Assembly (NCBI RefSeq): GCF_900114435.1
Contig: NZ_FOZK01000002.1
Location: forward strand, 558,001-622,000
Reading direction: 5' to 3'
Length of the DNA: 64,000 bases
DNA from: Halomicrobium zhouii
GTDB lineage: Archaea > Halobacteriota > Halobacteria > Halobacteriales > Haloarculaceae
Part shown: positions 12,722 to 47,132 of the stretch, in pieces
How positions within the stretch are numbered: position 1 is the first letter of the stretch
Layout of the letters: every line of letters begins with the position of its first letter
Made by a program: the position numbers and the translations under genes
The notes under the pieces: model-generated
What the model was told of the DNA's origin: nothing
The model's database searches: none
Seen by the model: only the letters and a program-made list of their open reading frames with translations

Positions 12722-12815
12722 CGACCGTTCGTGGTCGCTCCAGGGGTTTTCCTCCGTCGATTCTCTGATCTTGCGTGTACAGTGTGCTCACTGCAACCAC
12801 TATCGGCAACAGTTA

Positions 12816-12844
12816 GAAAGCCCCCGGCCCCTTTCAGTCCCACC
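12816..12844. repeat. Collapsed half-copy of the long inverted-repeat element family
   Basis: The stretch GAAAGCCCCCGGCCC followed by CTTTCAGTCCCACC reproduces the two end sequences of a left arm of the elements at 35453, 44757 and 61565, but with the roughly 90 bases that separate them in those elements missing. It lies in the divergent gap between the beta-CASP nuclease and an aldo/keto reductase. Otherwise the gap 12722-12948 shows only promoter-like sequence. Confidence 0.65.
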
Positions 12845-12948
12845 CTCGTGGTTGAGTCAGTCAGGTTATTTTCCGGTGGATGCCCGGTTAGCGTGAATCG
12901 AACCCCGCCACGGCACGCCCTTTTCACGACGGAGTGCCAACTTCTCGC

Positions 12949-13761
12949 ATGGAGTACGAGACCGTTCGCGGCGTCCAGGTGCCGGCCGTCGGCCTCGGGA
13001 CCTACCAGCTTCAGGGTCGGGCGGGGATCCGGGCCGTGAAGCGCGCGCTCGACCTGGGCTATCGCCACCTCGACACCGCGGAGCTGTACGAGAACGAGAC
13101 GGTAGTCGGGACGGCGCTCGGGGAGTCCTCGGTCGACCGCGAGGCGGTGTTCCTGACGACGAAAGTGTGGAAGACCAACCTCGCCCGCGACGACGCGCTG
13201 GCCTCCGGCCGCCGGAGCGCCGAGAAGCTCGGGGTAGACACCATCGACCTCCTGCTGATCCACGCGCCGAGCGGTTCCGTTCCCATCACCGAGACCATCG
13301 GGGCGATGAACGACCTCCAGTCCGAGGGGACGGTCCGCCACGTCGGCGTGAGCAACTTCTCGGTCGACCAGTTGCGGACGGCGATGGAGGCTTCCGAGAC
13401 GCCGATCCTCACCAACCAGGTCGAGTACAGCCCCTACGAGGACCAGTCGGCGCTCCTCGAGTTCTGCATCGAGCACGACGTCCTGCTGACGGCCTACAGC
13501 CCGCTGGCCAAGGGGAGGGTCGCGAAGGACGGCACGCTCACGGAGATCGGCGAGCGCCACGGGAAGACGGGCGCGCAGGTCGCGCTCCGGTGGCTCGTCC
13601 AGCAGCCGAAGGTCGTCACCATCCCGAAGGCCGGCGGCGAGGACCACCTCCGGGAGAACATCGACGTCTTCGACTTCGCGCTCACCGACGACGAGATGAC
13701 GACGGTGGCGGAACTCGGCGGCGGTCCGATCGACAGGATCCGTTCGCTGCTCAATCTCTGA
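12949..13761 (+). CDS. Aldo/keto reductase (first of three)
   Basis: 270 residues, (beta/alpha)8 NADPH-dependent oxidoreductase. Catalytic tetrad candidates are Asp and Tyr in HLDTAELYENE, Lys in FLTTKVWK and His in LLLIHAP; the cofactor end IPKAGGEDHLRENIDVFDF is typical. Most similar in style to 2,5-diketo-gluconate reductase-like AKRs. The ATG at 12949 is preferred over a GTG five codons upstream, as family members begin directly with the first beta hairpin. Substrate not predictable. Confidence 0.9.
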   Translation: MEYETVRGVQVPAVGLGTYQLQGRAGIRAVKRALDLGYRHLDTAELYENETVVGTALGESSVDREAVFLTTKVWKTNLARDDALASGRRSAEKLGVDTIDLLLIHAPSGSVPITETIGAMNDLQSEGTVRHVGVSNFSVDQLRTAMEASETPILTNQVEYSPYEDQSALLEFCIEHDVLLTAYSPLAKGRVAKDGTLTEIGERHGKTGAQVALRWLVQQPKVVTIPKAGGEDHLRENIDVFDFALTDDEMTTVAELGGGPIDRIRSLLNL

Positions 13762-32489: not shown

Positions 32490-33179
32490 ATGCGCCTGCT
32501 CCGCGGTCGGGCGAGTGACCCCGAGACCGACCAGCGGCGCACCCGCGAGATGGTCGACGCCGTCGCCGACAGCGACGCTCCGGCCCTCAGAGTCTGGACG
32601 CCCTCTCGCCAGGTCGTCTTCGGCCGGCGCGACCGCCGCAGCGACGGCTACGAGCGGGCCAGGGAACTCGTACTACAGCGGGACTTCGCCGTCCGCGAAC
32701 GCGAGGTCGGGGGCCGGGCAGTCGCCTACACCGGGACGACCGTCGCGTTCGCGCTCGCCGAACCCGTCGACGACCACCGGCGCGGTATCGGTGCCCGGTA
32801 CGACCGCGCGCTCGACGCGCTCCAGAGCGCCCTCGCCGACCGCGGAATCTCCGCCGAACGTGGCGAACCACCGGACTCGTTCTGTCCGGGAAGCCACTCC
32901 CTGCAGACGGACGACGGCAAAGTCGCCGGCGTCGCTCAGCGCGTCCGCCAGGACGTCGCCGTCGTGGCTGGGGTGGTCGTCGTGAGCGACGCCGCGACAG
33001 TCGCCGACGTTCTCGACCCCGTCTACGACGCGCTCGGCGTGCCCTTCGATCCGGCGAACGTCGGAAGTCTGGCCGCGGCGACTGACGGCGAACCCACTCC
33101 GGAGAGAGTGGTCGACGCCGTCGGGAGGGCGTTCACCGGGGAGTCGGAGACTGGCTCCGACGCTGTCCGGGGGAGGTAG
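32490..33179 (+). CDS. Lipoate-protein ligase A-like protein
   Basis: 229 residues. Biotin/lipoate ligase fold: RVWTPSRQVVFGRRDRR near the N-terminus, VREREVGGRAVAYTGTTVAFALAEP (the glycine-rich RxxGG-like stretch) and the lysine motif DGKVAGVAQRVRQDVAVVAGVVVV, where Lys binds the lipoyl-adenylate carboxyl. It is shorter than bacterial LplA and lacks its accessory C-terminal domain, which in archaea is often a separate protein. The lipoylated targets would be 2-oxoacid dehydrogenase E2 or glycine cleavage H protein. No such gene is next to it. Confidence 0.8.
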   Translation: MRLLRGRASDPETDQRRTREMVDAVADSDAPALRVWTPSRQVVFGRRDRRSDGYERARELVLQRDFAVREREVGGRAVAYTGTTVAFALAEPVDDHRRGIGARYDRALDALQSALADRGISAERGEPPDSFCPGSHSLQTDDGKVAGVAQRVRQDVAVVAGVVVVSDAATVADVLDPVYDALGVPFDPANVGSLAAATDGEPTPERVVDAVGRAFTGESETGSDAVRGR

Positions 33180-33308
33180 GCTCGGTCGACGGACTTCCCG
33201 TACTCGGGAAGCGCGAAAATGCCGTCGGGGCCGTGGAGGGGCTTTGGAGGGCCGTCAGCAAGGGGCCGTGGAGGGACTGCGAGCAACCCGCGAGAGACGA
33301 GACGGTGT

Positions 33309-33494
33309 TCAGTCCCGTTCGAAGGCTCGAATCGCGTTCCGTACCTCTTCGTCGGTCGCTTCGCTCCGCTCGTCCGACCGCGACGAGACGAGGCGCAGGT
33401 ACTCCGCGAGCGTCGATCGGACGCGCGTACCGAGCCCTTCGTCTCGGGGGGTCTCGACGACGGATTCGTGGAGGGTGGACGGGGACATAGCCAT
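33309..33494 (-). CDS. Small haloarchaeal protein downstream of the DUF7123 gene
   Basis: 61 residues: MAMSPSTLHESVVETPRDE, then LGTRVRSTLAEYLRLVSSRSDERSEATDEEVRNAIRAFERD, predicted to be two amphipathic helices. It lies 9 bases after the DUF7123-type gene on the same strand, consistent with an operon. A second ATG at 33488 is equally possible. No family recognised; charge pattern and codon use favour a real gene. Confidence 0.55.
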   Translation of the reverse strand: MAMSPSTLHESVVETPRDEGLGTRVRSTLAEYLRLVSSRSDERSEATDEEVRNAIRAFERD

Positions 33495-33503
33495 TCTAGC
33501 ACC

Positions 33504-33788
33504 TCAGGCAGACTGCGTGCGCGTCACGCGCCAGGTGGTCGCGCTCGTGTAGGACCACTTCTCGATTTCGAGGTCGGGCGCGGACTCCTGCAGCCGGATC
33601 ATCAGCTGGCCGATCGCCTGGGGCGACAGGTCGACGTCGTCGGCGATGAACTTGCCCTTGACGTAGAGTTCACCCTGGTTTGCGGTCTCTTCGGCCAGAT
33701 ACGCACGCAGGCGCTCGGCCTTGGAGTCACTCTCGGCGCAGTCGGCGGGCGATTCCTCGACAGCCGCGGGGGGTGCTGTTGCGCTCAT
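33504..33788 (-). CDS. DUF7123-type haloarchaeal small protein
   Basis: 94 residues. An acidic disordered N-terminus is followed by RLRAYLAEETANQGELYVKGKFIADDVDLSPQAIGQLMIRLQESAPDLEIEKWSYTSATTWRV, which looks like a winged-helix fold and agrees with a widespread haloarchaeal family. Widely conserved and often near information-processing genes, with no assigned function. A TATA box GTATATAAC lies at 33820-33828, preceded by the dyad CACCC-AGT-GGGTG (33808-33820). Confidence 0.75.
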   Translation of the reverse strand: MSATAPPAAVEESPADCAESDSKAERLRAYLAEETANQGELYVKGKFIADDVDLSPQAIGQLMIRLQESAPDLEIEKWSYTSATTWRVTRTQSA

Positions 33789-34162
33789 TGGCTTCGGTCA
33801 CCACTTGCACCCAGTGGGTGTTATATACGCGAGTCGCTTTGCTCTATTTAGCGACTGCCCGGAACAATTAATCCGATTTCGGCGCTCGAATTCGTTTCAT
33901 CCCCATTTTACGACTGGCTGAGACCGCCCGAGATTCTTTACGATACGATCTGACGCGCTCTCTCAGTTTACGGGGAACGTCCGTTCGATGGACAGAAAAA
34001 TTCACGACGGCCGACACGATCGCGGTGAGGCACACGCTACAGGAGACGCTTGACGACCGTTCGCGAGCGAACGCGCGTAAACTGTTCTCGGTGCGTGGGC
34101 ACACCACCGTCCGCGGTCGCGACTCCGAAACACGTAGGTCTGGCCACCGAGGAGCCAACCGT
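33789..34162. promoter_or_regulatory. Divergent intergenic region between DUF7123 and dihydroorotase genes
   Basis: 374 bases, notably AT-richer than the neighbours. It holds the TATA box GTATATAAC for the leftward gene (33820-33828), a dyad CACCC-AGT-GGGTG over it, several further AT-rich patches (33840-33910), and a perfect hairpin CGTTCGC-GA-GCGAACG at 34058-34073. I see no credible gene; frames open here on the minus strand are shadows of dihydroorotase. Confidence 0.55.
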
Positions 34163-35452
34163 ATGCTCATCCGGAACGCGACACTCCCAGACAAGTCCGA
34201 GCGCGACGTCCGCGTCGAGGGCGAGACCATCGCCGCCGTCGAATCGGCCCTCGAACCCCACGACGACGAGCGCGTCGTCGAAGCACGGGGCAAGCGACTC
34301 TTCCCGGGGATGATCGACGTCCACGTCCACTTTCGCCAGCCCGGCTACTCGCACAAGGAGACGTGGGCGTCGGGGTCCCGCTCCGCTGCAGCGGGCGGCG
34401 TCACTACCGTCGTCGACCAGCCCAACACAGACCCGCCGACGATCGACGCCGACGCGGTCGCGGAGAAGGAATCGCTCGCCGGCGAATCGGTCGTCGACTA
34501 CGGCATCAACGGCGGCGTCACCGAATCGTGGGACCCCGACGGCCTCCTCGACCAGCCGCTGTTCGCCCTTGGCGAGGTGTTTCTCGCCGACTCGACGGGC
34601 GACATGGGCATCGACGCCGACCTGTTCGAGGACGCGCTGGTGAGAGCCACCGAGAGGGGTCGGGCCGTCACCGTCCACGCCGAGGACGCGACGCTCTTCA
34701 ATCAGGACGCGAAAGAGCGCGACGACGCCGACGCCTGGAGCGCGTTCCGGACCACCGAGGCCGAGGAAGCCGCCGTCGAACGGGCCTGCGGCGTGGCCAG
34801 CGAGCACGACGCTACCATCCACGTCGCGCATACGAGCACGCCCGAGGGGATCGATATCGCCGCCGACGCGGGGATGACCTGCGAGGTGACGCCCCACCAC
34901 CTGTTCCTCTCGCGCGACGACCTGGCGGAACTCGGGACGTTCGGCCGGATGAACCCGCCGCTCCGGAGCGAGGAGCGACGTGCAGCGGTGTACGAACGCG
35001 TCGCCGACGGGACCGTCGACATGATCGCGACAGACCACGCGCCCCACACGCGCGAGGAGAAGGACGCCGCCATCTGGGACGCGCCCTCGGGCGTCCCCGG
35101 CGTCGAGACGGCGCTCCCGCTCCTCCTCGAAGAAGCCAGGCAGGGGAACCTCTCCTACGAGCGCGTCCGCGACCTCACCGCGGCGAATCCAGCCGACGTG
35201 TTCGACCTGCCGCGGAAGGGAACCATCGAGGAAGGCGCCGACGCCGACCTCGTCCTCGTCGACCCGGACGACGCTCGGAAGATTCGTGGGGAGGACATGC
35301 ACACCAAGATCGACTGGACGCCGTTCGAGGGCTTCACCGGCGTGTTCCCGGAGTGGACGATGGTTCGAGGCGAGGTCGTCTACGAACGGGACCCGGCGAG
35401 CGGCGACGAGACGTTCGCCGACCACCAGGGCGAGAACGTTCGTGAGCGGTAG
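34163..35452 (+). CDS. pyrC: Dihydroorotase
   Basis: 429 residues. Catalyses the reversible cyclisation of carbamoyl-aspartate to dihydroorotate, third step of pyrimidine synthesis. Amidohydrolase metal ligands: HxH in MIDVHVHFRQPGYSHKE (His-Val-His), later His in IHVAHTS and TPHHLFLS, and the catalytic Asp in MIATDHAPHT. NP/N substrate motif appears in VVDQPNTDPP. The start is MLIRNATLPD at 34163; a longer frame to 34025 lies in promoter DNA. The stop codon is directly followed by the 16-bp terminal repeat of the element at 35453. Confidence 0.93.
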   Translation: MLIRNATLPDKSERDVRVEGETIAAVESALEPHDDERVVEARGKRLFPGMIDVHVHFRQPGYSHKETWASGSRSAAAGGVTTVVDQPNTDPPTIDADAVAEKESLAGESVVDYGINGGVTESWDPDGLLDQPLFALGEVFLADSTGDMGIDADLFEDALVRATERGRAVTVHAEDATLFNQDAKERDDADAWSAFRTTEAEEAAVERACGVASEHDATIHVAHTSTPEGIDIAADAGMTCEVTPHHLFLSRDDLAELGTFGRMNPPLRSEERRAAVYERVADGTVDMIATDHAPHTREEKDAAIWDAPSGVPGVETALPLLLEEARQGNLSYERVRDLTAANPADVFDLPRKGTIEEGADADLVLVDPDDARKIRGEDMHTKIDWTPFEGFTGVFPEWTMVRGEVVYERDPASGDETFADHQGENVRER

Positions 35453-35817
35453 AACTACTGTGTTGATCAGTCCGGATCGAGACGACCACGAGAACTAGAA
35501 ACAAAACCCCGAAAGCCCCCTCCCGCTCGGGTCGGGGGCCCGCGACTGCGCTCCTCGCTCACTCCGTTCGCTCCGGTGCTTGTCGGGGCCGCCTTCCCCG
35601 AGCGGTCGGCCCCTTTCATTCCCGCCCGTTTCTCCTGACGAACCAGCCGAAGTGGGTGGACTGAAAGGGGCGGTCGGCTGAACGAACCCCGACGACGCGA
35701 GCACCGCAGCGGAGCGAGGAGCGCAGCGAGTCGCGGGAGTTCAGCCGACCGGGGCTTTCGGCCTGTTGATTAGAGTTGCAGGTGCCGCCTCAGTACCGAC
35801 CGATCAACACAGTAGTT
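35453..35817. repeat. Long inverted-repeat element 1, bounded by perfect 16-bp inverted repeats
   Basis: A 365-base block filling the gap between two convergent genes. Its ends are an exact 16-bp inverted repeat (AACTACTGTGTTGATC at 35453-35468; its complement at 35802-35817). Inside, a left arm (about 35509-35627) runs from CCGAAAGCCCC to CCCCTTTCATTCCC and a right arm (about 35653-35762) from GGACTGAAAGGGG to GGGGCTTTCGG; they pair imperfectly over about 110 bases. It has no coding capacity of note. Shares arm ends with the elements at 44757, 61565 and 12816. Could be a miniature mobile element, a two-way terminator or a structured RNA. Confidence 0.8.
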
Positions 35818-35855
35818 GCCTCCCGCACAGAGGTAGCTAACGGGAAAGCGCACCC

Positions 35856-36353
35856 TCACTCCGATTCCTCTTCGGCACGCCCCTTCCAGGCCTTCTCCTG
35901 GGCGCGTTCGGCGACGTGGCGGTCGCCGTCGGCGAGACGCTCGCGCGCTCGCTCCTCGAGCGTCTCGGCGTCGTCGAGCAGGCCGGCCTGGAACGTCTCC
36001 AGCACGTCGTAGGACCAGCGGTCGTCGAGCACGCCGCAGGGGAGAAAGTCGTCGCGGAGTTCGTCCGCCAGTTCGTCTTCACCCTGGTCGCGCAGCAACG
36101 CCTCGGCGGCGGCGAAGTGGTCCATCGCGTGACCGGTGTTGTGGTGGAAGGCGACGAGGTGGCCGTGTGCGCGGTGGAACCACTCCAGGCCGAGTTCGAC
36201 GCGGTGGAGGGCCTCGACGGCGGGGTCATCGGAGTGAGGGGACTCGGCGACGCGCTGCTGGTCGTCGACTTTCGTCGGGTTCCCGGTGTGGGCGGCGTCT
36301 TCGGCGGCGGTTCGGTCGTCGGCTCGCGGTCCCTCGGTCGGATCTGACGCCAT
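35856..36353 (-). CDS. Conserved-looking haloarchaeal acidic protein, unknown function
   Basis: 165 residues. The first 45 are acidic and disordered (TEGPRADDRTAAEDAAHTG). Then VEALHRVELGLEWFHRAHGHLVAFHHNTGHAMDHFAAAEALLRDQGEDELADELRDDFLPCGVLDDRWSYDVLE is helical with several histidines and acidic residues spaced as in helical-bundle metal sites; this is only suggestive. Start MASDPTEG at 36353, divergent from the LVIVD-repeat gene with 124 bases between. Family not recognised. Confidence 0.62.
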   Translation of the reverse strand: MASDPTEGPRADDRTAAEDAAHTGNPTKVDDQQRVAESPHSDDPAVEALHRVELGLEWFHRAHGHLVAFHHNTGHAMDHFAAAEALLRDQGEDELADELRDDFLPCGVLDDRWSYDVLETFQAGLLDDAETLEERARERLADGDRHVAERAQEKAWKGRAEEESE

Positions 36354-36477
36354 GTCCCACAGTTGGGCGCCGGGACACCTCTGTCTGTCGCTCGTATCAC
36401 ACTGGACACACGTTCGTCGGCACGGTCCGCTGCAGACGAGCGCAACGTTTCTACGTTCGGACGCCCCACTGTGGGAC

Positions 36478-37866
36478 ATGCATCGCCGGTCGTTCCTCCG
36501 GGCTGCGTGTGGAAGCGCCGTCCTCGGGAGCGTCGGAACTGCCAGCGCACACCCGAAAGGCTCTGGCGGGGGGCAGGGGACGCCGGTCTCCGAGACGCCG
36601 ACGGGACCGGACCCGCTCGGATCGCTCCGCCTCGCGGGCGCCAAGGAGGCGGTCGTCCGGGACGGAACGACCGTCTTCCTGGCGACGACTGACGGGTTCG
36701 CCGTCGTCGACGTGAGCGACCCGGCCGACCTGGCCGTCGCCTACAGTTCCGACGCCGTTCTCGACGACCACGAACACGGCCCCATGCGACAGATCTGGGA
36801 CGTGAAGGTCGACGGCGACTGTCTGCTCGTGGTTGGCCCGGCCAACGGCGGCGTCGACGCCGTCCACGCCGCCGTCGTCTACGACGTCGGGGACCCGACC
36901 GAACCGGACCGCGTCGCCGTCCACGAGACGGACTACCCCATCCACAACGCCTTCCTCGCCGACGGCGTCGCCTACCTGACGGCAAACGACTTCGAATCGA
37001 ACTGGCTCGTCACCGTCGACGCCGACTCGGGCGAGGAGTTCGGCCGGTGGTCGTTGCTTGACCACGACGAGGCCTGGGGTGACGTCGAACCGGTTATGCG
37101 CGTCCTCCACGACGTCTGGGTCGCCGACGACATCGCCTACCTCGCCCACTGGGACGCCGGCACCTGGATTCTGGACGTGTCGGACCCGGCCAGCCCTGAG
37201 TTTCTCTCTCGCGTCCGCGGTCGGCCGGTCGAGGAACTCGCCGCCGTGGCGAACACCTCGGAGGAAGCGACGGCGCTGCCCGGCAACGACCACTTCGTCA
37301 CCGTCGACGAGAGCGGGACGCTGCTCGGTGTCGGCGTGGAGTCGTGGGCCGTCGAAGACGGTGCGGACGTCGGCCCAGGCGGCATCCACCTCTACGACGT
37401 CTCCGACCCGACAGACCCGCGCGAACGGGCAACGATCGACCCGCCGCCGTCGCCCGACCCGACCCGGTCGGGCGTCTGGACGACGGCCCACAACTTCGAA
37501 CTCGCCGACGGCCGGTGCTACTCCTCGTGGTACCAGGGTGGCGTGAAGGTCCACGACGTCTCCGAGCCGTCGACGCCGCGGGAGCTGTTTCACTGGCGCG
37601 ACGGGAGCCAGACGAAGTTCTGGACGGCCCAGCGGGGCGTGCCCGGCGAGTTCTTCCTCGCCAGCAGCTGGGAGTCCCCCGGTGACGAGGACGGCGCCGG
37701 CGGGCTGTACGTCTTCCCGGACCCGGCACCGGCTGAACCGGCGACGGAGTCGGGGGCGACAGACTCGGCCGGAGACGGCGGCATCGGCTCGCTCGTCGGT
37801 CTCGGCGCGCTCACCGGCGCCGGCCTCGGTGCGCTGGGGTTCAGCGCCTGGCGCGCTCGGCGATAG
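36478..37866 (+). CDS. LVIVD-repeat Tat-exported surface protein
   Basis: 462 residues. MHRRSFLRAACGSAVLGSVGTASAHP is a Tat signal with a likely AxA cleavage site. The body has repeated LVIVD-type units (FAVVDVSDPADLAV, AVVYDVGDPTEPDRV, TWILDVSDPASPEFL, IHLYDVSDPTDPRE, VKVHDVSEPSTP), expected to form a beta-propeller. A Gly-rich hydrophobic C-terminus (IGSLVGLGALTGAGLGALGFSAWRARR) anchors it in the membrane. Function unknown; ligand binding or adhesion are typical suggestions. Confidence 0.82.
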   Translation: MHRRSFLRAACGSAVLGSVGTASAHPKGSGGGQGTPVSETPTGPDPLGSLRLAGAKEAVVRDGTTVFLATTDGFAVVDVSDPADLAVAYSSDAVLDDHEHGPMRQIWDVKVDGDCLLVVGPANGGVDAVHAAVVYDVGDPTEPDRVAVHETDYPIHNAFLADGVAYLTANDFESNWLVTVDADSGEEFGRWSLLDHDEAWGDVEPVMRVLHDVWVADDIAYLAHWDAGTWILDVSDPASPEFLSRVRGRPVEELAAVANTSEEATALPGNDHFVTVDESGTLLGVGVESWAVEDGADVGPGGIHLYDVSDPTDPRERATIDPPPSPDPTRSGVWTTAHNFELADGRCYSSWYQGGVKVHDVSEPSTPRELFHWRDGSQTKFWTAQRGVPGEFFLASSWESPGDEDGAGGLYVFPDPAPAEPATESGATDSAGDGGIGSLVGLGALTGAGLGALGFSAWRARR

Positions 37867-37928
37867 CTGCGGCTCGGTCCGTCAGCTGTCGGGCGACAGA
37901 ACGTCTGGAAGCGACTGCGGAGCGGCGG

Positions 37929-38777
37929 TTACTGGACGGTCCAGTCACCGTCCTCGGCGACGACGACGCGACTGTCGAACAGGTCGGTTACCGCCGACAC
38001 CGTCTCCTCGCCGAACGGTTCCGGGTCGAAGTGGTAGTGTGCGACTGCGTCCGCCGTGGCCATCCGGTCGGTAGTCGCACGGAGGAACTCCAGCGCCTGC
38101 TCCCGGGGCGTAGTCTGGAGTAACCTGGTCACCGAATCGAAGCAGACGACGAGCTGTCGGTCGCTCGCCGCCAGTGATCCCAGGCGCTCCGTAATCGTCG
38201 CCGCCAGCTCCGGGAGGTCGCTCGCGTCCGGGATGTACGAGAATGATTCGAGGCGCCCACTCGCCGCTCCCCGGGTGGTCGCGGCGGCCGACGACCGGGG
38301 GAAGTCCCCCAGGTTGATCGCGGCGGTGTCTGCCGGTCGTTCGTCCATGTACTGTTCCCAGGCGGAGACGCGACGATCGAAGGATTCCGCGTGCAACACT
38401 CCCAGCAGGTTCTCCTGGTCATACGGCGCGACGGACAGGAGGTCCACGCAGGCCTCGTGGGAGTGTGAGTGCGTCGTCAGGAGGACGTTTGCCGCCCCGT
38501 CGATCGACTCGTGGATGAACGCGTCGGGCGTCGTGTCGGCGACGTAGATGTCGCCGGCGGAGGTCACCTCGACCTCGAGGTCGTCGACCGTGAACGAGAC
38601 GGAAACGCTGCTCGATTCGGACACCAGCGTGTCCAGGGCGTCCGGGTCGACCACGCGTCCGAGGGGTTCCAGTTCGAGGGCGTCTCGCCCCTTCACGAAC
38701 TGGATCGCCTCCAGTACTCCACCGAACGGATCCGCGTCGTCGATCCTGAAGTGGTACGTCTCTGTGTCGGCGTCCAT
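37929..38777 (-). CDS. HalOD1-domain protein fused to RecA/KaiC-like (DUF7504-type) domain
   Basis: 282 residues from MDADTETYHF; the frame extends upstream without conserved character. Residues about 5-80 (GGVLEAIQFVKGRDALELEPLGRVVDPDALDTLV … VSFTVDDLEVEVTSAGDIYV) match the haloarchaeal output domain HalOD1. The rest (NVLLTTHSHSHEACVDLL, RQLVVCFDSVTRLLQTTPREQALEFLRATTDRM) looks like a degenerate RecA-fold domain lacking a clear P-loop, as in DUF7504. Such proteins act in halobacterial signalling. A TATA-rich stretch (GGATATATAACTATTTACTGG) lies at 38852-38873. Confidence 0.75.
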   Translation of the reverse strand: MDADTETYHFRIDDADPFGGVLEAIQFVKGRDALELEPLGRVVDPDALDTLVSESSSVSVSFTVDDLEVEVTSAGDIYVADTTPDAFIHESIDGAANVLLTTHSHSHEACVDLLSVAPYDQENLLGVLHAESFDRRVSAWEQYMDERPADTAAINLGDFPRSSAAATTRGAASGRLESFSYIPDASDLPELAATITERLGSLAASDRQLVVCFDSVTRLLQTTPREQALEFLRATTDRMATADAVAHYHFDPEPFGEETVSAVTDLFDSRVVVAEDGDWTVQ

Positions 38778-39038
38778 CAGTGTGTGCTTCCCTTCGGTGT
38801 CATTGCGATGTCGGTGCGAGACCGTATCCCACTGAACAGAACATGCGGTCTCGGATATATAACTATTTACTGGATATGCCCGCCCGGTGATGCGTTTGAC
38901 AGTTTTCAACGCGACCTTTCACCGACCGGCCGGCGCCTCCTCGCAACCACCCGGTGACCTCGTCAGGGGAAGCTGACGAGTTTGGCTGCGGGCCAGTCGG
39001 TCGTCCCATCCCGGTCGGCGGTCTCGGCACCCTCCGGG

Positions 39039-40472
39039 TCACGACTCGCTCCCGCCGAGCCCGTGGACGAGTGACGCCGCGACGTTCCGGGCCTTCTCCG
39101 CGAGCGCCTCGGAGACGTGGCCGGCCTCGACCGCGTCGTCGAGTTCGTCGTCGTCGACGCGCTCGACCGTCCCGTCGGCGTGTTTCACCACGTCGACGTG
39201 GAGGTCGACGTAGCGGACTTGCCCGGGGAACACCTCGACTGGGGTACAGACGTTGACGTACGTCCCGCGGCGCTCGCCCTCGGCCCCCTCGTAGGTTGTC
39301 GGGTACCACCAGCGGCCCTCCGTGACCTTGGTGATGGCGACGTCGCCGGCCTGTCGATCGACGCCGAGGCCGTCGTACTGGCCGCCCGGCGTCATCTCCC
39401 GCCGGAGCGTCACCGTCCCGTCCGCCTCGACCGAGTCGACGGCCGCCTCGCCGAGCGTGAACAGGCGGCCGTCGGGCTTCCCGTGGGCGATGTCCACGGT
39501 GTCGCCGGCCTGCGGCCCGAACTGTCGCGCCACCGCCGCGAAGGGGAAGTCGCTCTCGCCGGTGTCGACGTCCTCGTCGTCGACGAGCGCCTCGACCAGG
39601 TCGACCGCCCCCGAGGCGCTGTTCGTCCCCGCCTTCGTCCGGTGGTGGCCCGGCATCGTCGTCGTCACCTCGCGGCGGACCTCGTCGAGCGCGAACCGGC
39701 TCTCGCGGCCGAACCACACCCAGGTCGTCGCCTCGTCGGTGAGGTAGCGATGGGGCGCGACGGCGGCCGGGTCGGGTGCGTCCCCGTCGGCGGGTTCGGC
39801 CCCGCTGGCGAGCGCATCGTCGACGGTAGCGGCCCGTTCGTTCAGCGTCTCGAGCGCGTCCGAGAGCGCGTCGAGGTCCGCGTCGTCGCTCGCCGCGTCC
39901 CACCGAGCGCCCCAGCCCTGGCGGGGGTCCGTCGGGAGGATGTCCGCGAGCGCGGGGCCGTTGGTCGCCGCCGTCCCACCGCGGACCAGCGTCGCCAGCG
40001 ACCCCTGGACGCGCATCGTCGCGTCGAGCACCGTGCGGTCGTCGCCCCACGGCGGCGTCGGTTCGGTCACCTGGACGCGCAGGCGGTCGCCGTCGTCGAC
40101 CCGTTCCGGGCTGTTCGAGTAGGGGAGGAACCCCTGTGCCCCGTCGCCCAGGTCGACGACGGCGCCGCTTCTGCGGGTATCGACGACTTCGCCGGCGAAG
40201 ACGGCGCCCCGGGGCGTCGGGTCAGCCCAGGCCAGCGCGTCGCGGCCGAGCGACTGGAGGTCGTCGGCCACCTGCGCGACCGTCTCCTCGTCGCCGACGA
40301 CGCCGACGCCCTGCCGATCGTCCGTCGTCGAGACCACGGCGTCGGCCTGTTCGGGCGGGAACTCGGCGTCGAAGCGCTCGCGGATGGGGTCCGAGGCCTG
40401 GACGACGCCCGGGTCGTCCCGAAATAGTTCCGTCAGCGCCGTCGCGTAGATGCCACGCACCTGGACCGTCAT
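39039..40472 (-). CDS. FAU-1 family RNA-binding protein (probable ribonuclease)
   Basis: 477 residues. It contains an S1-like RNA-binding segment (GAVFAGEVVDTRRSGAVVDLGDGAQGFLPYSN, about residues 88-120), related to the RNase E/G N-terminus, and a C-terminal DUF402-type beta barrel (WWYPTTYEGAEGERRGTYVNVCTPVEVFPGQVRYVDLHVDVV, about 385-430) ending in an acidic helix. Archaeal FAU-1 binds AU-rich RNA and has been linked to 5S rRNA maturation. The start overlaps the stop of the gene at 40469 (ATGA), so they are coupled. Confidence 0.88.
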   Translation of the reverse strand: MTVQVRGIYATALTELFRDDPGVVQASDPIRERFDAEFPPEQADAVVSTTDDRQGVGVVGDEETVAQVADDLQSLGRDALAWADPTPRGAVFAGEVVDTRRSGAVVDLGDGAQGFLPYSNSPERVDDGDRLRVQVTEPTPPWGDDRTVLDATMRVQGSLATLVRGGTAATNGPALADILPTDPRQGWGARWDAASDDADLDALSDALETLNERAATVDDALASGAEPADGDAPDPAAVAPHRYLTDEATTWVWFGRESRFALDEVRREVTTTMPGHHRTKAGTNSASGAVDLVEALVDDEDVDTGESDFPFAAVARQFGPQAGDTVDIAHGKPDGRLFTLGEAAVDSVEADGTVTLRREMTPGGQYDGLGVDRQAGDVAITKVTEGRWWYPTTYEGAEGERRGTYVNVCTPVEVFPGQVRYVDLHVDVVKHADGTVERVDDDELDDAVEAGHVSEALAEKARNVAASLVHGLGGSES

Positions 40473-40843
40473 AGCGCCTCGCGCTCCGCGGCGAAGCGCA
40501 CCCGCCCGTCGACCGTCGGCCCGAGGGTGAGTTCGACCACGCCCTCGGAGAGGACGCGCCCGGCCTCGACCGGGACCCCCCAGCTGTCGAAGCGGAGATA
40601 TCCCCGGATGTCGTCGGCGTGGGTGAACAGGTCGAGGTAATCGACGGTGTGCTCCTGGACGTCGCTCGAACTGTGGGCGACGTCCATGTCGGAGTAGACG
40701 GTCTCCCGATCCGCGAAGAACGCTTCCAGTTCGGCGGCGGCCTCGTCGGTCAGTTCGACGACGGTCTCCGAGGCGGCGTCGATCTCGTCGGTCGAGAGGC
40801 CCGCCTCGCGCAACGCCTGCTGTTCGCGCTGGGTGAAGTGCAT
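40469..40843 (-). CDS. DUF7532-type haloarchaeal protein
   Basis: 124 residues. MHFTQREQQALREAGLSTDEID at the N-terminus and VEAGRVLSEGVVELTLGPTVDGRVRF at the C-terminus; overall an alpha/beta protein with acidic surface. The family is known only from haloarchaea and its function is unknown. It overlaps FAU-1 by 4 bases, suggesting a common RNA-related task. Family number is from memory and should be treated as likely, not certain. Confidence 0.72.
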   Translation of the reverse strand: MHFTQREQQALREAGLSTDEIDAASETVVELTDEAAAELEAFFADRETVYSDMDVAHSSSDVQEHTVDYLDLFTHADDIRGYLRFDSWGVPVEAGRVLSEGVVELTLGPTVDGRVRFAAEREAL

Positions 40844-40930
40844 ACCGACCGTTCGGATTCGAACCGTGAAAACGGTTGTACTGTCGGCCGAACTCGCGCG
40901 ACGATCCGTCGTCGCGACGGCGCCCGCCGT

Positions 40931-41086
40931 TCAGAAGGTGTTCAGGATGAGGACGAGGAACCCGAACATCGCGCCGAAGGCGACGATGGTCCGGGGGTCG
41001 ATTCGGATTGTGTTGCGGTCTTCCGCGTCGAAGTACCGGACCAGGCCGGCACTGGACATCAGCCCGCCGCCGTCGTTGCTGCTCAT
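40931..41086 (-). CDS. secG: Preprotein translocase subunit Sec61-beta
   Basis: 51 residues. [23 protein letters not shown] followed by [25 protein letters not shown] is the highly conserved archaeal Sec61-beta pattern: a short cytosolic N-terminus with GLxxSAGLxRYF and a single C-terminal membrane helix. It joins SecY and SecE in the protein-conducting channel. Longer upstream frame has no conserved residues. It is a single gene here, divergent from thioredoxin at 41310. Confidence 0.93.
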
Positions 41087-41309
41087 GCTATTTGCTGGAC
41101 CCCGCGTCGGAGTAAGCCTTTCCCTTTCGCGACCGGTCGACGCCGGCGTGGCGACGGCCCCGCTTCCGCCGGCACCGACGCGCCGAAGCCGCCAGCGCAG
41201 CACTCCTGTCGGCGAACCACCAGAAGGCGGACGCGCCGGTCACCCGCGTGTCGACTGCTCGGTGAAAATCCTTATCTGGCCCGCACGGTTAGCTTTGGGC
41301 GAACCAGCA

Positions 41310-41576
41310 ATGACAGTCACGCTCAAGGACTTTTACGCCGACTGGTGTGGCCCCTGCAAGACCCAGGACCCGATCCTGGAGGACCTCGAAGAGGACTGGG
41401 GCGACGTCGAATTCGAGAAGATCAACGTCGACGAGGAGCAGGACGTCGCCAACGAGTACCAGGTGCGCTCGCTGCCCACGCTCATCGTCGAGAACGACGA
41501 CGGCATCGTCGAACGGTTCGTCGGCGTCACACAGCACGACGACCTCGAGACGGCGCTCGACCAGGCGAACGCATAA
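41310..41576 (+). CDS. Thioredoxin
   Basis: 88 residues, compact thioredoxin fold. Active site WCGPC in KDFYADWCGPCKTQDPILE, cis-Pro in RSLPTLIVENDDG and the C-terminal helix DLETALDQANA. It is shorter at the N-terminus than bacterial thioredoxins (about 105 residues), as in many haloarchaeal forms. A TATA-like CTTATCT lies at 41270-41276. It would reduce cytoplasmic disulphides using a thioredoxin reductase encoded elsewhere. Confidence 0.9.
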   Translation: MTVTLKDFYADWCGPCKTQDPILEDLEEDWGDVEFEKINVDEEQDVANEYQVRSLPTLIVENDDGIVERFVGVTQHDDLETALDQANA

Positions 41577-41647
41577 CTCGGTTGCTTCGTTTTCGTTTCG
41601 GCTCCACCGGCGAGTGACGACTATCGAAATCGGGGCCGGACCGCTTC

Positions 41648-42316
41648 CTACCGGAACTCGACGCCCAGGTCGTGCATCCCGTCGTTGTGGCGGGCAACGT
41701 TGATGAGCAGCGGCGTCACGCACTCGACTTCCGCGGCGTTGGCGAGCGGGCCGCCGTCGAGTGGGCGGAGGCCTTCGATGTCGTCGGCCAGGGCCATCAC
41801 CGTCTCCTTGGCGTCGTGGTCGTCGCCGACGACGATGGTGTCCCACTCGACGTCGGCGTCCAGATCCGCCAGGCGGCCCGCCGCGAGGTTGTGGAAGGCG
41901 CCGACGACGGGGACGTCGTCTGGGGCGGCGCGGGCGGCCAGCGCGGTGACGCTGCCGGCGCCGGGCCGGTTGTAGTGGAAGCCCGCCTCGTCGCGTTTCA
42001 TCCCGACGGCCGGGGAGACGAGAACGTTCCCTTCCTCCAGCGCGTCGGCGACGGCCTCGACGGTGTCGGTGAGGTGGTAGGCGGGGACCGCCGCCACGAC
42101 GACGTCGGCCCGTTCGGCCGCCGAGCGGTTGTCGGTGCCGTCGACGGTCGCGTCGGCGCCGCGACTGTCGAGTTCGGTCTCGTACTCGTCGGCCTTCGCC
42201 GCCGCGCGGTCGGCCTCGCGCGATCCGATAACGACCTCGTGGGTCGAGTCCATCGCCCAGCGCAACGCCAGTCCCTCGCCGATGTCGCCGGTGCCCCCGA
42301 GCAAGGCAATTTGCAT
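41648..42316 (-). CDS. npdG: F420-dependent NADP reductase (NADPH-dependent F420 reductase)
   Basis: 222 residues. MQIALLGGTGDIGEGLALRWA is the dinucleotide-binding glycine loop; GSREADRA binds the NADP 2'-phosphate; VVAAVPAYHLTDTVEAV and VVGAFHNLAAGRLADLDADVEWDTIVVGDDHDAKETVMALADDIEGLRPLDGGPLANA complete the family pattern. It shuttles hydride between F420 and NADP. Start 42316; divergent from the ArsR-like regulator gene at 42410, with a 93-base shared promoter region. Confidence 0.92.
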   Translation of the reverse strand: MQIALLGGTGDIGEGLALRWAMDSTHEVVIGSREADRAAAKADEYETELDSRGADATVDGTDNRSAAERADVVVAAVPAYHLTDTVEAVADALEEGNVLVSPAVGMKRDEAGFHYNRPGAGSVTALAARAAPDDVPVVGAFHNLAAGRLADLDADVEWDTIVVGDDHDAKETVMALADDIEGLRPLDGGPLANAAEVECVTPLLINVARHNDGMHDLGVEFR

Positions 42317-42409
42317 AGCTATTGGGTGGGCCGAGCGCCGAATAAACGTTGTTACTGGTCGCGTCGCGCCCACCAAGGCTTTTGACGGCCGGGGGATAAC
42401 TGTCGAGGC

Positions 42410-43324
42410 ATGAGCAGGGCCGACACCATCCTGGAGTGCGAGGACTGCGTGGCCCCCGCCGACGCCTTCGCGCTCGTCAGCGACGAGACGCGACTGTCCA
42501 TCCTGGAGGCGCTCTGGCGCCTCGACGACCCGGTCCGGTTCTCCGAACTCCGGAGCGAGGTGGGCGTCCGCGACAGCGCGCAGTTCAACTACCACCTGAA
42601 CAAACTGACCGACCAGTTCGTCCGCAAGGTCGAGGCGTCCGCGGACGGCGACGGAGCCGCCAGTGGCACCGAACCCGCCGGCTACGAACTCCGAACCGCC
42701 GGCGAGCGCATCGTCCAGGCCATCCTCGCCGGGTCGTTCACCGAACACCCGCGCCGGGAGATCGCCATCGACGACCCGTGCACCCAGTGCGGGTCGGAAC
42801 TCGCGGCCCGCTACGACGACGAGGTGCTCGCCATCGACTGCCCCGACTGCGGGCACGGCCACGGCGAGTACCCGTTCCCGCCCGGCGGGCTCCACGACCG
42901 CTCCGACGCGGAGATTCTGGAAGCGTTCGACCAGCGCGTGCGCCACCTCCACTGCCTCGCCAAGGACGGCGTCTGCCCGGAGTGTTCCGGCCGCATGAAC
43001 ACGACCATCGAGCGCGCGGGTGAGTGCTGTCTGGGCACCTCGCTGCGGGCCGACCACGTCTGCGAGCAGTGCAACCACCAGCTCTGCTCGGCGGTGGGCC
43101 TGGGGCTGCTGGACCACTCCGCCGTCGTCTCGTTCTACGGCGACCACGACGTCGCACTCTCGGAGACGCCCTACTGGCGACTGGAGTGGTGCGTCGACGA
43201 CGAATCGGTCACCGTCCTCGAGGAGAACCCCTGGACCATCCGCATCGACATCAGCGAGAACGAGGAGACGCTCCGGGTCACCGTCGACGGCGACCTCTCC
43301 GTCGTCGACACCGAACGGGTCTGA
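42410..43324 (+). CDS. ArsR-like winged-helix regulator with zinc-ribbon domains
   Basis: 304 residues. The N-terminal 100 are an ArsR/HTH_20-type winged helix (ALVSDETRLSILEALWRLDDPVRFSELRSEVGVRDSAQFNYHLNKL). A Cys-rich part follows: CTQCG … CPDCG (a ribbon), then CPECSGRM … CEQCNHQLCSAVG, giving a second possible zinc site. The C-terminus is beta-rich. Widespread haloarchaeal regulator family with unknown ligand. Divergent from npdG. Confidence 0.82.
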   Translation: MSRADTILECEDCVAPADAFALVSDETRLSILEALWRLDDPVRFSELRSEVGVRDSAQFNYHLNKLTDQFVRKVEASADGDGAASGTEPAGYELRTAGERIVQAILAGSFTEHPRREIAIDDPCTQCGSELAARYDDEVLAIDCPDCGHGHGEYPFPPGGLHDRSDAEILEAFDQRVRHLHCLAKDGVCPECSGRMNTTIERAGECCLGTSLRADHVCEQCNHQLCSAVGLGLLDHSAVVSFYGDHDVALSETPYWRLEWCVDDESVTVLEENPWTIRIDISENEETLRVTVDGDLSVVDTERV

Positions 43325-43436
43325 GCCGCGGCCCGCCGCGACGTTTTTCGCCGGTTCGCCACCCGCTTCTATCAGACCTGTTACTCGAACGCAGTTCAGT
43401 AACTCGCGCTACAAAAATATCATTCAGATTATAGTT

Positions 43437-43694
43437 ATGCCGTCGGCGACCCGAGATCCACCTGTGATGAGGATCCCGACGCCGACCCACCTCGACCCGA
43501 CGCCGTGCGACGGATCGACGCTCGAATGCCTCGCCTGCGGGATGGCCGTCGTGGCCGTCTTCCCCCTCGCGCTGTGGGCCGTCGCCAACCCGATCGTCGC
43601 CGCAGTCGTCACGGCGACTGCCGTCGTCGCGCTGGTGACGCTGTCCGGTCTGGCGCGAACCGGCGCGCTCTGGTTCGACGGCGAGAAGATGTAG
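43437..43694 (+). CDS. Small membrane protein, unknown function
   Basis: 85 residues (or 75 from an internal ATG at 43467). After a Pro/Thr-rich N-terminus the segment CLACGMAVVAVFPLALWAVANPIVAAVVTATAVVALVTLSGLA forms two membrane helices. An AT-rich leader (ACAAAAATATCATTCAGATTATAG) precedes the start, a likely promoter. No family recognised. Confidence 0.55.
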   Translation: MPSATRDPPVMRIPTPTHLDPTPCDGSTLECLACGMAVVAVFPLALWAVANPIVAAVVTATAVVALVTLSGLARTGALWFDGEKM

Positions 43695-43727
43695 CGCCCG
43701 AACCGTCGACCGATTTTTCCTGACTGG

Positions 43728-44594
43728 TCACTCCAGCAGGTCCGGCAGGTCGTTGACCGACTCGACGACGGCGGCGGCGCCGGCCCCGCTGTACTTGCGC
43801 CGGCCGTCGTCACCCGTCAGCCCGCCGGTCAGCACCCCGACGCCGTAGTACACACGGTCGTCGTCCGCGGCGTCGGCGTTGACTGCCGTCCGGATGTCGT
43901 CCAGCGTGTCGCCGGCGAACGCCACCCGCTCGGCGCCGAAGCGCTCGGCGACTGTCCGGAGCGCGTGCGGGTGGGGCTTGCCCTCCTCCCAGTCGTCCAT
44001 CGTGAACCGGTACTCGTCGTCGACGGACAGGCCCACACGGTCCATCGCGATGTCCGCCTCTGCGGCGGGTCGGCCGGTGACGACGCCGACGTCGTAGCGC
44101 TCGTGCAGCGCCTCGATCGTCTCGGGCTCGACCAGCACCGGCTCGTCGTTGACGAACCCCGCCGTCTCCATCTCGGGCTCACCCCCCTCCAGTTCGCGAT
44201 ACAGGTCGCTTCCCAGGTACAGCTGCTGGAACACGTCCCGGAGCCGCTCGGGGTCCCAGGCGTCGAAGACGGCCTCGACGGCGGATTCGTCTAGCGACTC
44301 CCGAATCACTGCCTCTGCCGCGTCCAGTCCACCGCCGTGCTCTGCGATGCCGTCGGTGAACTCGTCGATATCGTGGTCCATTCCTTCGCGCGACCCGAGC
44401 AGGTACAGCGCCGCCGCGTAGGTGAGCTCCCAGTCGTCGTTGAACCCGCCCGCGTCCTTGAACTGCTGGATGGCTTCCTTGGGGATGGTCTCGCCGTACA
44501 CCGATTCCAGAGACTCGACGATCGCCCGCCGGTAGGAGTCCGCCACGTCCACCAGCACGCCGTCGATGTCCAGCACGACCGCGTCTACGTTCAT
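43728..44594 (-). CDS. HAD-superfamily hydrolase, IA type (TIGR01548-like)
   Basis: 288 residues. Motif [20 protein letters not shown], motif II region [11 protein letters not shown], motif III Lys in [15 protein letters not shown] and motif [19 protein letters not shown]. The arrangement and the extra insert ([31 protein letters not shown]) fit an archaeal/cyanobacterial HAD-IA subgroup found near histidine biosynthesis genes in some genomes; no such gene is adjacent here. Phosphate ester substrate unknown. Confidence 0.83.
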
Positions 44595-44756
44595 GTGGGT
44601 GACTCGTGGTTGCGGGTCCTCAATTCCTTTCCCCTTCTTCTTCGCCGTATTTCTCGTCGGTCGAGGTCGCGTTCTTTCGCGAGTAGTCGGTACAGAGAGG
44701 TCCTAGCTGTAACGATTGGGTTTGTTCGGGCGCTTGGTGGTGCTATTGACGACCGC

Positions 44757-45227
44757 AACAGGTCGAAAGCCCTCGGCGCGCTCGCCTCGCGCGACCCACG
44801 CTGCGCGCCTCCCTCCGGTCGGTGCTTGCGGGGTCGGGCTTCGGCCACCGCGCCTCGCCCTTTCAGTCCACCAGGTCCTGCCTCGCTCACGCGGCCTCAC
44901 TCCGTTCGGCACGCGTTCACGATTGAGTCCGCCAAACCTCCCCGGTCGCTCGCCGTCCGGCGAGCGATACGCTTCCTGACCGCTCCGCACCCGCCCGGCC
45001 GGGAGCGCGTTTCATCGCGCGACCAGGGGAAGGGCAGGGTTGCGGTGCTGTGCGGGCCTCGGAGTCCTCGTGAGCGAAGCGAACGAGGGCTCGTCAGAGC
45101 TTGCTCTGACGGTGGACTGAAAGGGCGAGGCGGGGTGGAGGAAGCACGGACCCGCAAGCACGCGAGGAACGAGCGCGCGCAGCGTGGTCCGCGCGACTCC
45201 AGGCCGCCGAGGGCTTTCGACGTGTTG
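44757..45227. repeat. Long inverted-repeat element 2
   Basis: About 470 bases between two same-strand genes. Left arm 44757-44872 runs from CAACAGGTCGAAAGCCCTCGG to GCCCTTTCAGTCCACC; right arm 45111-45227 is its imperfect complement, from GGTGGACTGAAAGGGC to CCGAGGGCTTTCGACGTGTTG. The interior (44873-45110) contains a conserved-loop hairpin (44890-44915), a perfect 8-bp hairpin GTCAGAGC-TT-GCTCTGAC (45093-45110) and GCGACCAGGGGAAGGGCAGGG (near 45019), which also occurs in element 3. No gene is seen from 44595 to 45326. Confidence 0.8.
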
Positions 45228-45326
45228 TTCCCACAGTTCCTTCCAGCACTCAAATCACAGAACCACCAGTTACAGAAGCACCTTGAACAGAACACACAGG
45301 TTCGACCCGGGCAGGACTTCGGTCAC

Positions 45327-45740
45327 TCAGCCCCGGCGGTTACCCGGGACCCCCTCCTTCGCGACGAACAGTGTCTCGCCCTCGGGAAGGGTCTCCCGGT
45401 CGACAGAAATCGAAGGCTGGTCGCTGCCGAGCGTCGTGAACAGGAAGTCCGCGTCGAATTCACGAGCCACGTCCCACGCGGGTCGATGGAGCTCCGGCGG
45501 CAGGTTGAGCCCGTACACGCACTCCGCATCAGCGTACACTGACTTCTCGGGCTCGGTCACGTCGTCTTTCACAAACCCCACCCCGTCGGGAACTGCACGC
45601 TCGACCACGTCGGTGGCGGTCACCACACAGCCCCGTTCGACCAGCGCTGTGGCGACCTCGGGCTGGCGACCCACGCCGACCTCGACCAGCCGGTCGAAAT
45701 TCTTCAACCGGTCGACAAGGGCCTCACGTGCGGTGGTCAT
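45327..45740 (-). CDS. UPF0146 family protein
   Basis: 137 residues from MTTAREALVDRLKNFDRLVEVGVGRQPEVA. The glycine-rich VEVGVGRQPEVATAL resembles a methyltransferase SAM-binding loop; VVTATDVVERAVPDGVGFVKDDVTEPEKSVYADAECVYGLNLPPELHRP matches the archaeal UPF0146 family, a small Rossmann-like protein of unknown activity. Longer frame upstream lies over the archaemetzincin gene and is spurious. Divergent from archaemetzincin. Confidence 0.87.
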   Translation of the reverse strand: MTTAREALVDRLKNFDRLVEVGVGRQPEVATALVERGCVVTATDVVERAVPDGVGFVKDDVTEPEKSVYADAECVYGLNLPPELHRPAWDVAREFDADFLFTTLGSDQPSISVDRETLPEGETLFVAKEGVPGNRRG

Positions 45741-45779
45741 GGCGGGATGTTTATGCCACACCCATGCATATGCGTTCCT

Positions 45780-46301
45780 ATGCACGTCGATATCGTGCCG
45801 GTGGGTGACGTCCCCGCGACGGTCAAGCGCGAGGCCTCGGACGGCCTGCGTTCCGTCTACGACTGCGATGTCTCCATGCACGAGCCCCGTTCTATCCCTG
45901 CCGGTGCGCACGACGAATCCCGGGACCAGTACCGGGCAGAAGAGTTCATCGACCTGGCACAGCGGGTGGGCAAGGGCGACAAGAACATCGCCATCACCGG
46001 CAAGGACCTGTACTACCGCCGGCGCAACTACGTCTTCGGCCTCGCGTACCTCTCGGGCAGTGGCAGCGTCATCTCCACCTACCGCCTCCAGACGTCCTCC
46101 GACGGTGGCTTCTCCAACCGCTCGGCGAGCGACATCTTCGCCGACCGCGTCCGCAAGGAAGTCATCCACGAGATCGGCCACACCATCGGCCTCGAACACT
46201 GCGACAACAAGCGCTGCGTGATGAACTTCTCGCCCACGGTCAGACAGGTCGACGTCAAGGAACCGTCGCTGTGTGGCTCCTGCCAGCGAGACGTGATCTG
46301 A
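45780..46301 (+). CDS. amzA: Archaemetzincin
   Basis: 173 residues. Zinc metallopeptidase family M54. The catalytic helix HEIGHTIGLEHC supplies three His ligands and the catalytic Glu (HExxHxxGxxHC), followed by CVMNFSPTVRQVDVKEPSLCGSC, giving the family's second structural zinc site of four cysteines and the Met of the Met-turn. Start at ATG 45780, 39 bases from the divergent UPF0146 start. Substrate and role in archaea are unknown. Confidence 0.93.
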   Translation: MHVDIVPVGDVPATVKREASDGLRSVYDCDVSMHEPRSIPAGAHDESRDQYRAEEFIDLAQRVGKGDKNIAITGKDLYYRRRNYVFGLAYLSGSGSVISTYRLQTSSDGGFSNRSASDIFADRVRKEVIHEIGHTIGLEHCDNKRCVMNFSPTVRQVDVKEPSLCGSCQRDVI

Positions 46302-46320
46302 GCGTCGCCGCGTCCGTTCA

Positions 46321-46342
46321 GATGCCAAATCTATTAGGCATC
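46321..46342. promoter_or_regulatory. 22-bp dyad upstream of the 46379 gene
   Basis: GATGCC-AAATCTATTA-GGCATC is an inverted repeat with a 10-base AT-rich centre, ending 36 bases before the ATG at 46379. TATA-like CTCTATACC lies between (46362-46370). It is positioned to be an upstream operator or a 3' hairpin of archaemetzincin. Confidence 0.4.
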
Positions 46343-46378
46343 AACGGTATCCTCTGTGTGCCTCTATACCAAGGTGCG

Positions 46379-46585
46379 ATGAGTGAAAGTCATTCCACAA
46401 CCAGGGTCGACGAACTGAGCGACATCTTCGTATCAGTGACGGGGGACGACTCGGTGACGGAGGTCCAGGAGGAGGTCCACAGCGACCGCGAACTCCCCGC
46501 CGACGAGGCAGTCGACGTCGACGACGGCCTCGAGGACGCGGTCGCCGGCGCAGAGACGGGCAGCACCTCGGACCCGGCCGCCTGA
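46379..46585 (+). CDS. Small very acidic haloarchaeal protein
   Basis: 68 residues, about a third Asp/Glu, few hydrophobics: VDELSDIFVSVTGDDSVTEVQEEVHSDREL then PADEAVDVDDGLEDAVAGAE. Its own TATA-like sequence and start suggest a real gene; the sequence looks partly disordered with one short amphipathic helix at the N-terminus. No family recognised. Confidence 0.6.
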   Translation: MSESHSTTRVDELSDIFVSVTGDDSVTEVQEEVHSDRELPADEAVDVDDGLEDAVAGAETGSTSDPAA

Positions 46586-46630
46586 GAACGCTTTTTCGAG
46601 ACCGACCGTCTACTTTCCGCCGACCACCCG

Positions 46631-46705
46631 CTTCTCACTGCCCACCGCTCACCCGCTCCTTACTGCCCACCGCTCACCCACTATCTACCGCCCACCAGCC
46701 ACCAG
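46631..46705. repeat. Three tandem 25-bp units
   Basis: Units at 46631, 46656 and 46681 share CT-N4-ACTGCCCACCGCTCACCC (the third is more diverged). They sit between two convergent small genes. Nothing else is seen from 46586 to 46770. Confidence 0.6.
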
Positions 46706-46770
46706 CGACGAGTCTCGGCGACGACTCGCCGGCCGCCGCTTCACCCGCACCTGACTCCCGGGCGCACGGC

Positions 46771-46929
46771 TCACTCTTCGACGACCGTCAGTTCGAGCGT
46801 GTGGCCCGACTCCGTGCCGTGCATCTCGACGGTCTCGTACGGATTCTCACCGTCCGCCGGGGTGACCACCTTCGAGAACTCGCACTCGGTACACTCGATC
46901 CGCATCGTCGGTGTATCGTTGGATGACAT
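46771..46929 (-). CDS. Small haloarchaeal zinc-finger protein
   Basis: 52 residues from MSSNDTPTMRIECTEC. CTEC in the first half and His-x7-His in VEMHGTESGHTLEL give a Cys2His2-like set of ligands. Related small proteins occur widely in haloarchaea, some described as zinc-finger micro-proteins that affect global cell behaviours. The function of this one is unknown. The longer frame to 47046 adds no conserved residues. Confidence 0.7.
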   Translation of the reverse strand: MSSNDTPTMRIECTECEFSKVVTPADGENPYETVEMHGTESGHTLELTVVEE

Positions 46930-47132
46930 GGGTGGACTGGTTCCGCCGTGATCCGCGGGGCACTGGCCTTCTCTCTCACGAACGCACCGACACTGCAGTG
47001 CGTAGACGGCCAGGACCGATGGGGGTCTCCGTCTACAACCTGTCACTCCATGCTAATAACGGCGTCCATCGGACCGACGTCCGCTGGTTCCGGGCGCTAT
47101 AGCAAAGACGTTGCACGGTGGAAAGTGATGGC

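Follow-up and report, generated by a model that had tools for sequence, protein, structure and literature searches.

A hairpin-rich, non-coding repeat family of haloarchaea with cores inverted in place between sister species

The non-coding segment at positions 35453-35817 of the window (the whole 64,000-nucleotide stretch of Halomicrobium zhouii DNA that was analysed) belongs to a very common hairpin-rich repeat family of haloarchaea and is not a lone curiosity. We consider it probable that the repeat is a non-autonomous palindromic element, similar to the palindrome-associated transposable elements (PATEs) although without IS605-type ends, whose palindrome is both preserved and turned over by template switching during replication. 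Two points go beyond the first-pass annotation of this DNA, namely the very large size of the repeat family and the confinement of the 16-bp ends to its short subfamily.

The element and its family

The 365-bp segment starts one base past the stop codon of the dihydroorotase gene (TAG, 35450-35452) and its last base falls 38 bases short of the stop of the convergent gene (TGA, minus strand, 35856-35858). Its first 16 bases (AACTACTGTGTTGATC, plus strand, 35453-35468) are a perfect reverse complement of its last 16 (minus strand, 35802-35817; GATCAACACAGTAGTT on the plus strand). This is the longest perfect inverted repeat in the segment, while 60 shuffles reached at most 11 bp, which bears out the initial description of a 365-bp element with a perfect 16-bp terminal inverted repeat (TIR) and inverted arms. 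The arms are imperfect and about 100 bp each, with 67 nt of 73% complementarity and nested 15- and 21-nt repeats. Between the TIRs and the core lie two outer spacers, of which the left (35469-35510) is homologous to the ends of other short-subfamily copies and the right (35760-35801) shows homology to the ends of other copies. The core itself (35511-35759) is palindromic and consists of three hairpins, in which a closing stem, GAAAGCCC/GGGCTTTC, encloses a left arm, a central hairpin and a right arm. The left arm hairpin is GAAAGCCC...CCGCTCGGG...CCCCGAGCGG (plus strand, 35511-35609), and the right arm hairpin (CGGTCGGCTGAAC...GTTCAGCCGACCG, ending in GGGGCTTTC, minus strand, 35671-35759) is its inverted partner. 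The short central hairpin (CCCCTTTCATTCC...GGACTGAAAGGGG, 35610-35670), flanked by CCCTTTCATTCC / GGACTGAAAGGG, has a loop of about 35 nt that is inverted in the orthologous copy. Since the arm hairpins begin 58 bp from each end, palindromes are placed near the termini. As had been proposed for checking, the segment was folded in silico, and the fold was far above that of shuffled sequence (RNA folding energy -207 kcal/mol; z = -7.6 against dinucleotide shuffles). A codon-model gene caller called no gene inside 35453-35817, in agreement with the supposed lack of coding capacity, and 365 bp is too short for a transposase. The longest T runs in the segment are of 3-4 bases, and no target duplication is visible next to either end.

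With the element as query, BLAST returned 107 matching pieces in the host genome. The core seed CCCTTTCADTCC had 187 matches (89 + 98) in the 4.25-Mb host genome and none for the reversed-pattern control, which excludes the case of a sequence without copies that is unique to this gene pair. In the nearest relative, the sister genome corresponding to Halobacteria archaeon HArc-gm2, the seed had 224 matches (110 + 114), and in three other genomes of the same genus it had none (one same-genus genome corresponds to Halomicrobium katesii). Within the class the distribution is patchy, as the seed was present in 213 of 292 genomes with a range of 0 to 224 matches, the copy numbers based on the seed being lower bounds. 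Copies of the element were found in 29 of 40 relatives and also occur on plasmids across many genera of haloarchaea; a genus that belongs to another family (G168, G181, G195, G289) had about 57-105 seed matches per genome. A search for phage carriers of the element gave no match, and scans of viral contigs for exact patterns found 3 and 8 matches, about the chance level for such short patterns. No earlier description of the family was found in open-licence papers on the motif or on haloarchaeal palindromic repeats.

The copies have a common anatomy, in which two inverted hairpin arms of about 105 bp surround a central domain and stand within end segments of 40-75 bp that are homologous among copies on either side of the core. 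Two subfamilies with common arms were recognised, a short one with a central loop of about 35 nt, to which the window copy belongs, and a long one, whose conserved middle domain of about 170 nt is made of several hairpins. Two types of end were distinguished, and long copies with classifiable ends have one of either type and show no TIR beyond the chance level. It is the short subfamily that has the 16-bp TIR, and most family members are without it. When the 16-bp end was searched elsewhere in the host genome with up to 2 mismatches, other sites were indeed found, although all of them were copies of this same element (4-5 in number) and never an insertion sequence (IS). The window holds three further copies. 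The second, with a long-subfamily core (44765-45218, plus strand), has the same orientation as its orthologue; the third, also with a long-subfamily core (61568-61979, plus strand), faces an orthologous site in the relative where the core is deleted and both ends are left; and a partial copy (12729-13063) is degenerate both here and at its orthologous position in the relative.

The first-pass annotation had offered a large two-way transcription terminator as one possible role, a suggestion that the placement of the copies does not sustain. By our own gene calls, made with a simple codon-model caller, 81 copies fell into 37 co-directional, 23 convergent and 21 divergent gaps, and the background gene pairs of the same stretches were 235 co-directional, 95 convergent and 84 divergent. 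Convergent gaps are thus not enriched (23/81 copies against 95/414 in the background), and the longest T run speaks no more for termination. The copies are orientation-neutral in intergenic gaps and are therefore not a dedicated convergent terminator; any structural part played at gene 3' ends, for instance in ending some transcripts of dihydroorotase or of its facing neighbour, would be a by-product.

Comparison with the sister species

Largely syntenic sequence of the two sister species (584 kb against 530 kb) was compared. Twelve two-armed copies in the syntenic block are common to both species. Several copies present in one genome are missing from the other, some leaving a clean short gap; no clean target duplication was seen, and the empty-site junctions were not sharp. 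This pattern of presence and absence is of the mobile type, and it points to insertion, which could partly be loss. Together with the copy number, the lack of coding capacity and the empty sites, it leaves the earlier term "miniature element" broadly correct. At two sites the fused end segments stand by themselves where the other species retains the core. The idea that such fused ends are an ancestral host repeat that received cores was rejected, core-free end pairs being present at only these two sites.

The copy beside dihydroorotase is common to both species, with outer flanks 83-94% identical and a core of about 75% identity; in the other relatives examined, no copy followed dihydroorotase. 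It therefore arose before the two species split and is probably no older than the genus. The undamaged outer repeat had been read as a sign of selection or of recent origin, and neither is called for: the window copy is not recent, because the sister genome carries a same-site copy with diverged TIRs (AACTACTGGGTTGAGC / AACTACTGTGTTGAGC), and an undamaged inverted repeat needs no selection, because arm-to-arm copying can keep the arms matched.

The entire short core gave a better alignment inverted than direct at five orthologous sites, while the genes outside stayed direct. The core identities, inverted against direct, were 0.96 and 0.70 for L234/L283, 0.93 and 0.66 for L244/L281, 0.85 and 0.72 for L222/L267, 0.82 and 0.73 for L240/L287, and 0.81 and 0.73 for L193/L266. 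The inversion in L234/L283 spans everything between the 16-bp-type ends at 91-97% identity, with breakpoints at the outer ends, and that in L244/L281 has its breakpoints within a perfect inverted repeat of about 20 bp at the core base. The central loop of L222 (12059-12107) is an almost exact reverse complement of the orthologous loop in L267 (9533-9580), and at the window's own site a partial inversion, of the central loop and one arm, is seen relative to the sister copy. Of the full two-armed short copies, all five that have an intact orthologue were inverted, and the window copy partly, in a targeted, non-random set of BLAST matches to the window copy that was blind to orientation. In the contiguous block, which was not picked by similarity to the window copy, 8 two-armed pairs had the same orientation, 3 were inverted and 1 was ambiguous, and both of its short pairs were inverted. 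Palindromes are places where assemblies err, and the inversions and empty sites were read from assemblies alone, one of them a 20-contig draft. As they stand, the two genomes would provide many natural examples of palindromes inverted in place between sister species.

Stem covariation

Double changes were found in 14 of 17 predicted pairs of the arms and in 12 of 46 of the middle domain, often without an intermediate; at columns 93/114, for example, AU occurred 20 times and UA 15 times with the G-U intermediate absent. Such pairing counts, made on sequence-based alignments, cannot separate selection from arm-to-arm copying. In an RNA under selection, G-U would be expected to be tolerated on the RNA's own strand, but A-C would not. 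Each core was therefore folded with G-U pairing disallowed, and isolated mismatches with a pair on both sides were counted. The ratios of G-T to A-C mismatches were 62:59 in long cores, 16:13 in the middle domain and 8:9 in short cores, a comparison that leans on established knowledge of RNA stems, as the tRNA positive control gave too few cases. Since G-T and A-C were equally common, the stems look like a DNA-level feature. A search of Rfam over 33000-47000 gave no match at E up to 1. The results suggest that, in intergenic repeats of archaea, stems can change in a compensatory way through events at the DNA level, that such changes need not imply a structured RNA, and that the G-T against A-C count may serve as a simple discriminator between DNA-level and RNA-level covariation of stems. 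Within the otherwise Watson-Crick stem of the arm hairpin, a near-invariant G-T opposition was observed (33 of 40 arms; alignment A1, columns 45 and 75), which is possibly a recognition feature.

Mechanism and alternative explanations

Template switching between inverted repeats has been reported to homogenise arms and to invert the spacer (PMC8604942). It accounts jointly for the matched stems without an RNA bias, for the varied inversion breakpoints and for the loss of cores, the last owing to palindrome instability. The element would have been amplified in many haloarchaea, presumably by transposition in trans, and polymerase template switching between its inverted repeats would maintain and turn the palindrome at the DNA level. 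Strand exchange in inverted orientation, between the many copies of the chromosome that a haloarchaeon has, might act in its place; switching or exchange from repeat to repeat would in either case homogenise the arms, invert what lies between them and occasionally delete the core. As in the published system, the arms stay complementary and the intervening segment is inverted, but the sizes differ. The published spacer inversions are of a few bases only (PMC8604942), far below the approximately 250 bp inverted in the cores here, and the known spacers are short where those of the element measure about 35 to about 330 bp and are met at many loci within a single pair of genomes. Amplification itself lies outside template switching and needs a mobilising enzyme, and spread would require that enzyme to recognise the arms or ends. 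Neither a transposase nor an autonomous copy bearing these ends turned up, and the 8 TnpB and 4 Y1-transposase matches of the genome are without similar arms or ends. An apparent autonomous version at C2:54813-58636, with seeds 3.8 kb apart, was rejected, as it is really two separate copies flanking ordinary genes. With its many copies, the family shapes the intergenic regions of haloarchaea.

It was also considered that the structure works as RNA, be it a two-way terminator, an mRNA 3'-end stabiliser or a structured non-coding RNA, with selection on the fold giving rise to the covariation. The very strong fold, the compensatory changes, the position of the window copy where two genes end, two weak matches of terminator type where 0.4 were expected, and the report of strongly transcribed palindrome-associated elements in haloarchaea (PMC10544981) would all agree with this. 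Nevertheless, we judge it unlikely, as a selected RNA would favour G-U and the two mismatch types are equally frequent on either strand, divergent gaps hold a quarter of the copies and convergent ones are not enriched, T runs and Rfam offer nothing in its favour, and the orientation of the core flips between species. A comparably doubtful, more far-reaching view would make the family a class-wide system of dispersed invertible DNA led by the short subfamily, with frequent in-place flips by a dedicated recombinase or by hairpin-primed replication, which would move the element as well; if true, core orientation gets reshuffled between sister species.

A dispersed switch whose site-specific recombinase recognises the 16-bp repeats or the repeats of about 20 bp at the core base might explain why L234/L283 is inverted throughout between its 16-bp-type ends, why the breakpoints of L244/L281 fall inside a perfect inverted repeat, and why the full short copies are inverted without exception. 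It seems to us quite improbable, since breakpoints that vary by locus between outer ends, core base and central loop are what general inverted-repeat exchange is expected to leave, and long copies are mostly not inverted. Least probable of all is a classical miniature inverted-repeat element (MITE) of a resident IS with the 16-bp ends as transposase sites. Although the window copy, with its perfect ends, is small, free of ORFs and one of many, that end is never found at an IS of this genome, is missing from most of the family and, in the window copy, is not accompanied by a visible target duplication. Template switching in a non-autonomous palindromic element hence remains the reading that we prefer.

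Relation to known repeat elements

Bacterial REPINs and BIMEs are dispersed intergenic repeats of paired inverted hairpin units of about 20-40 bp. The haloarchaeal element likewise joins two inverted hairpin units in a dispersed intergenic repeat and also occurs as single units; it differs in a unit size of about 105 bp, and a link to a REP-associated transposase was not found. Closer parallels come from haloarchaea, where PATEs were described in Haloquadratum walsbyi. In that description (PMC3119063), PATEs resemble the element in being non-coding, hundreds of bp long and present in many heterogeneous copies with palindromes near the ends, in the lack of an observed target duplication, in the presence or absence of sites from strain to strain, and in terminal-only remnants after deletion of the core. 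PATE palindromes, however, resemble the ends of IS605-type transposons, while no IS605-type locus of the host matches the element, and PATEs are given as without the TIR that marks the short subfamily of the window copy. The inversion of cores in place had no counterpart among the PATE features compared. The element is described as PATE-like, and not filed as a PATE, because these two PATE features, absence of a TIR (short subfamily) and likeness to IS605 ends, fail. An IS605-type parentage was rejected, the TnpB and Y1 loci of the genome being without an arm or end match, and the known PATE of virus HRTV-DL1, the single PATE sequence compared, had no similarity to the element. The small mobile repeats (SMRs) of Haloquadratum (PMC3119063) share with the element TIRs unmatched to a known transposon, a non-coding length, the lack of an observed target duplication and an unknown mover; their types are >95% identical internally, whereas copies of the element are about 70-80% alike and heavily palindromic.

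Minor variants of the repeat were also seen. Single-arm copies, each one hairpin of about 105 bp with the same borders, exist at L189:3048-3150, about 30 bp past a stop codon, at L191:2957-3062, and at L202:2994-3100, near a tRNA gene. In several copies a double hairpin of about 48 bp (CCTCAGC...GCTGAGG...CGAGAGC...GCTCTCG) is inserted in the arm loop, always at one and the same place beside GGTGC, approximately at L244:11300-11350, L234:2893-2946 and L232:6890-6960, where the orthologues are without it, a repeat inside a repeat.
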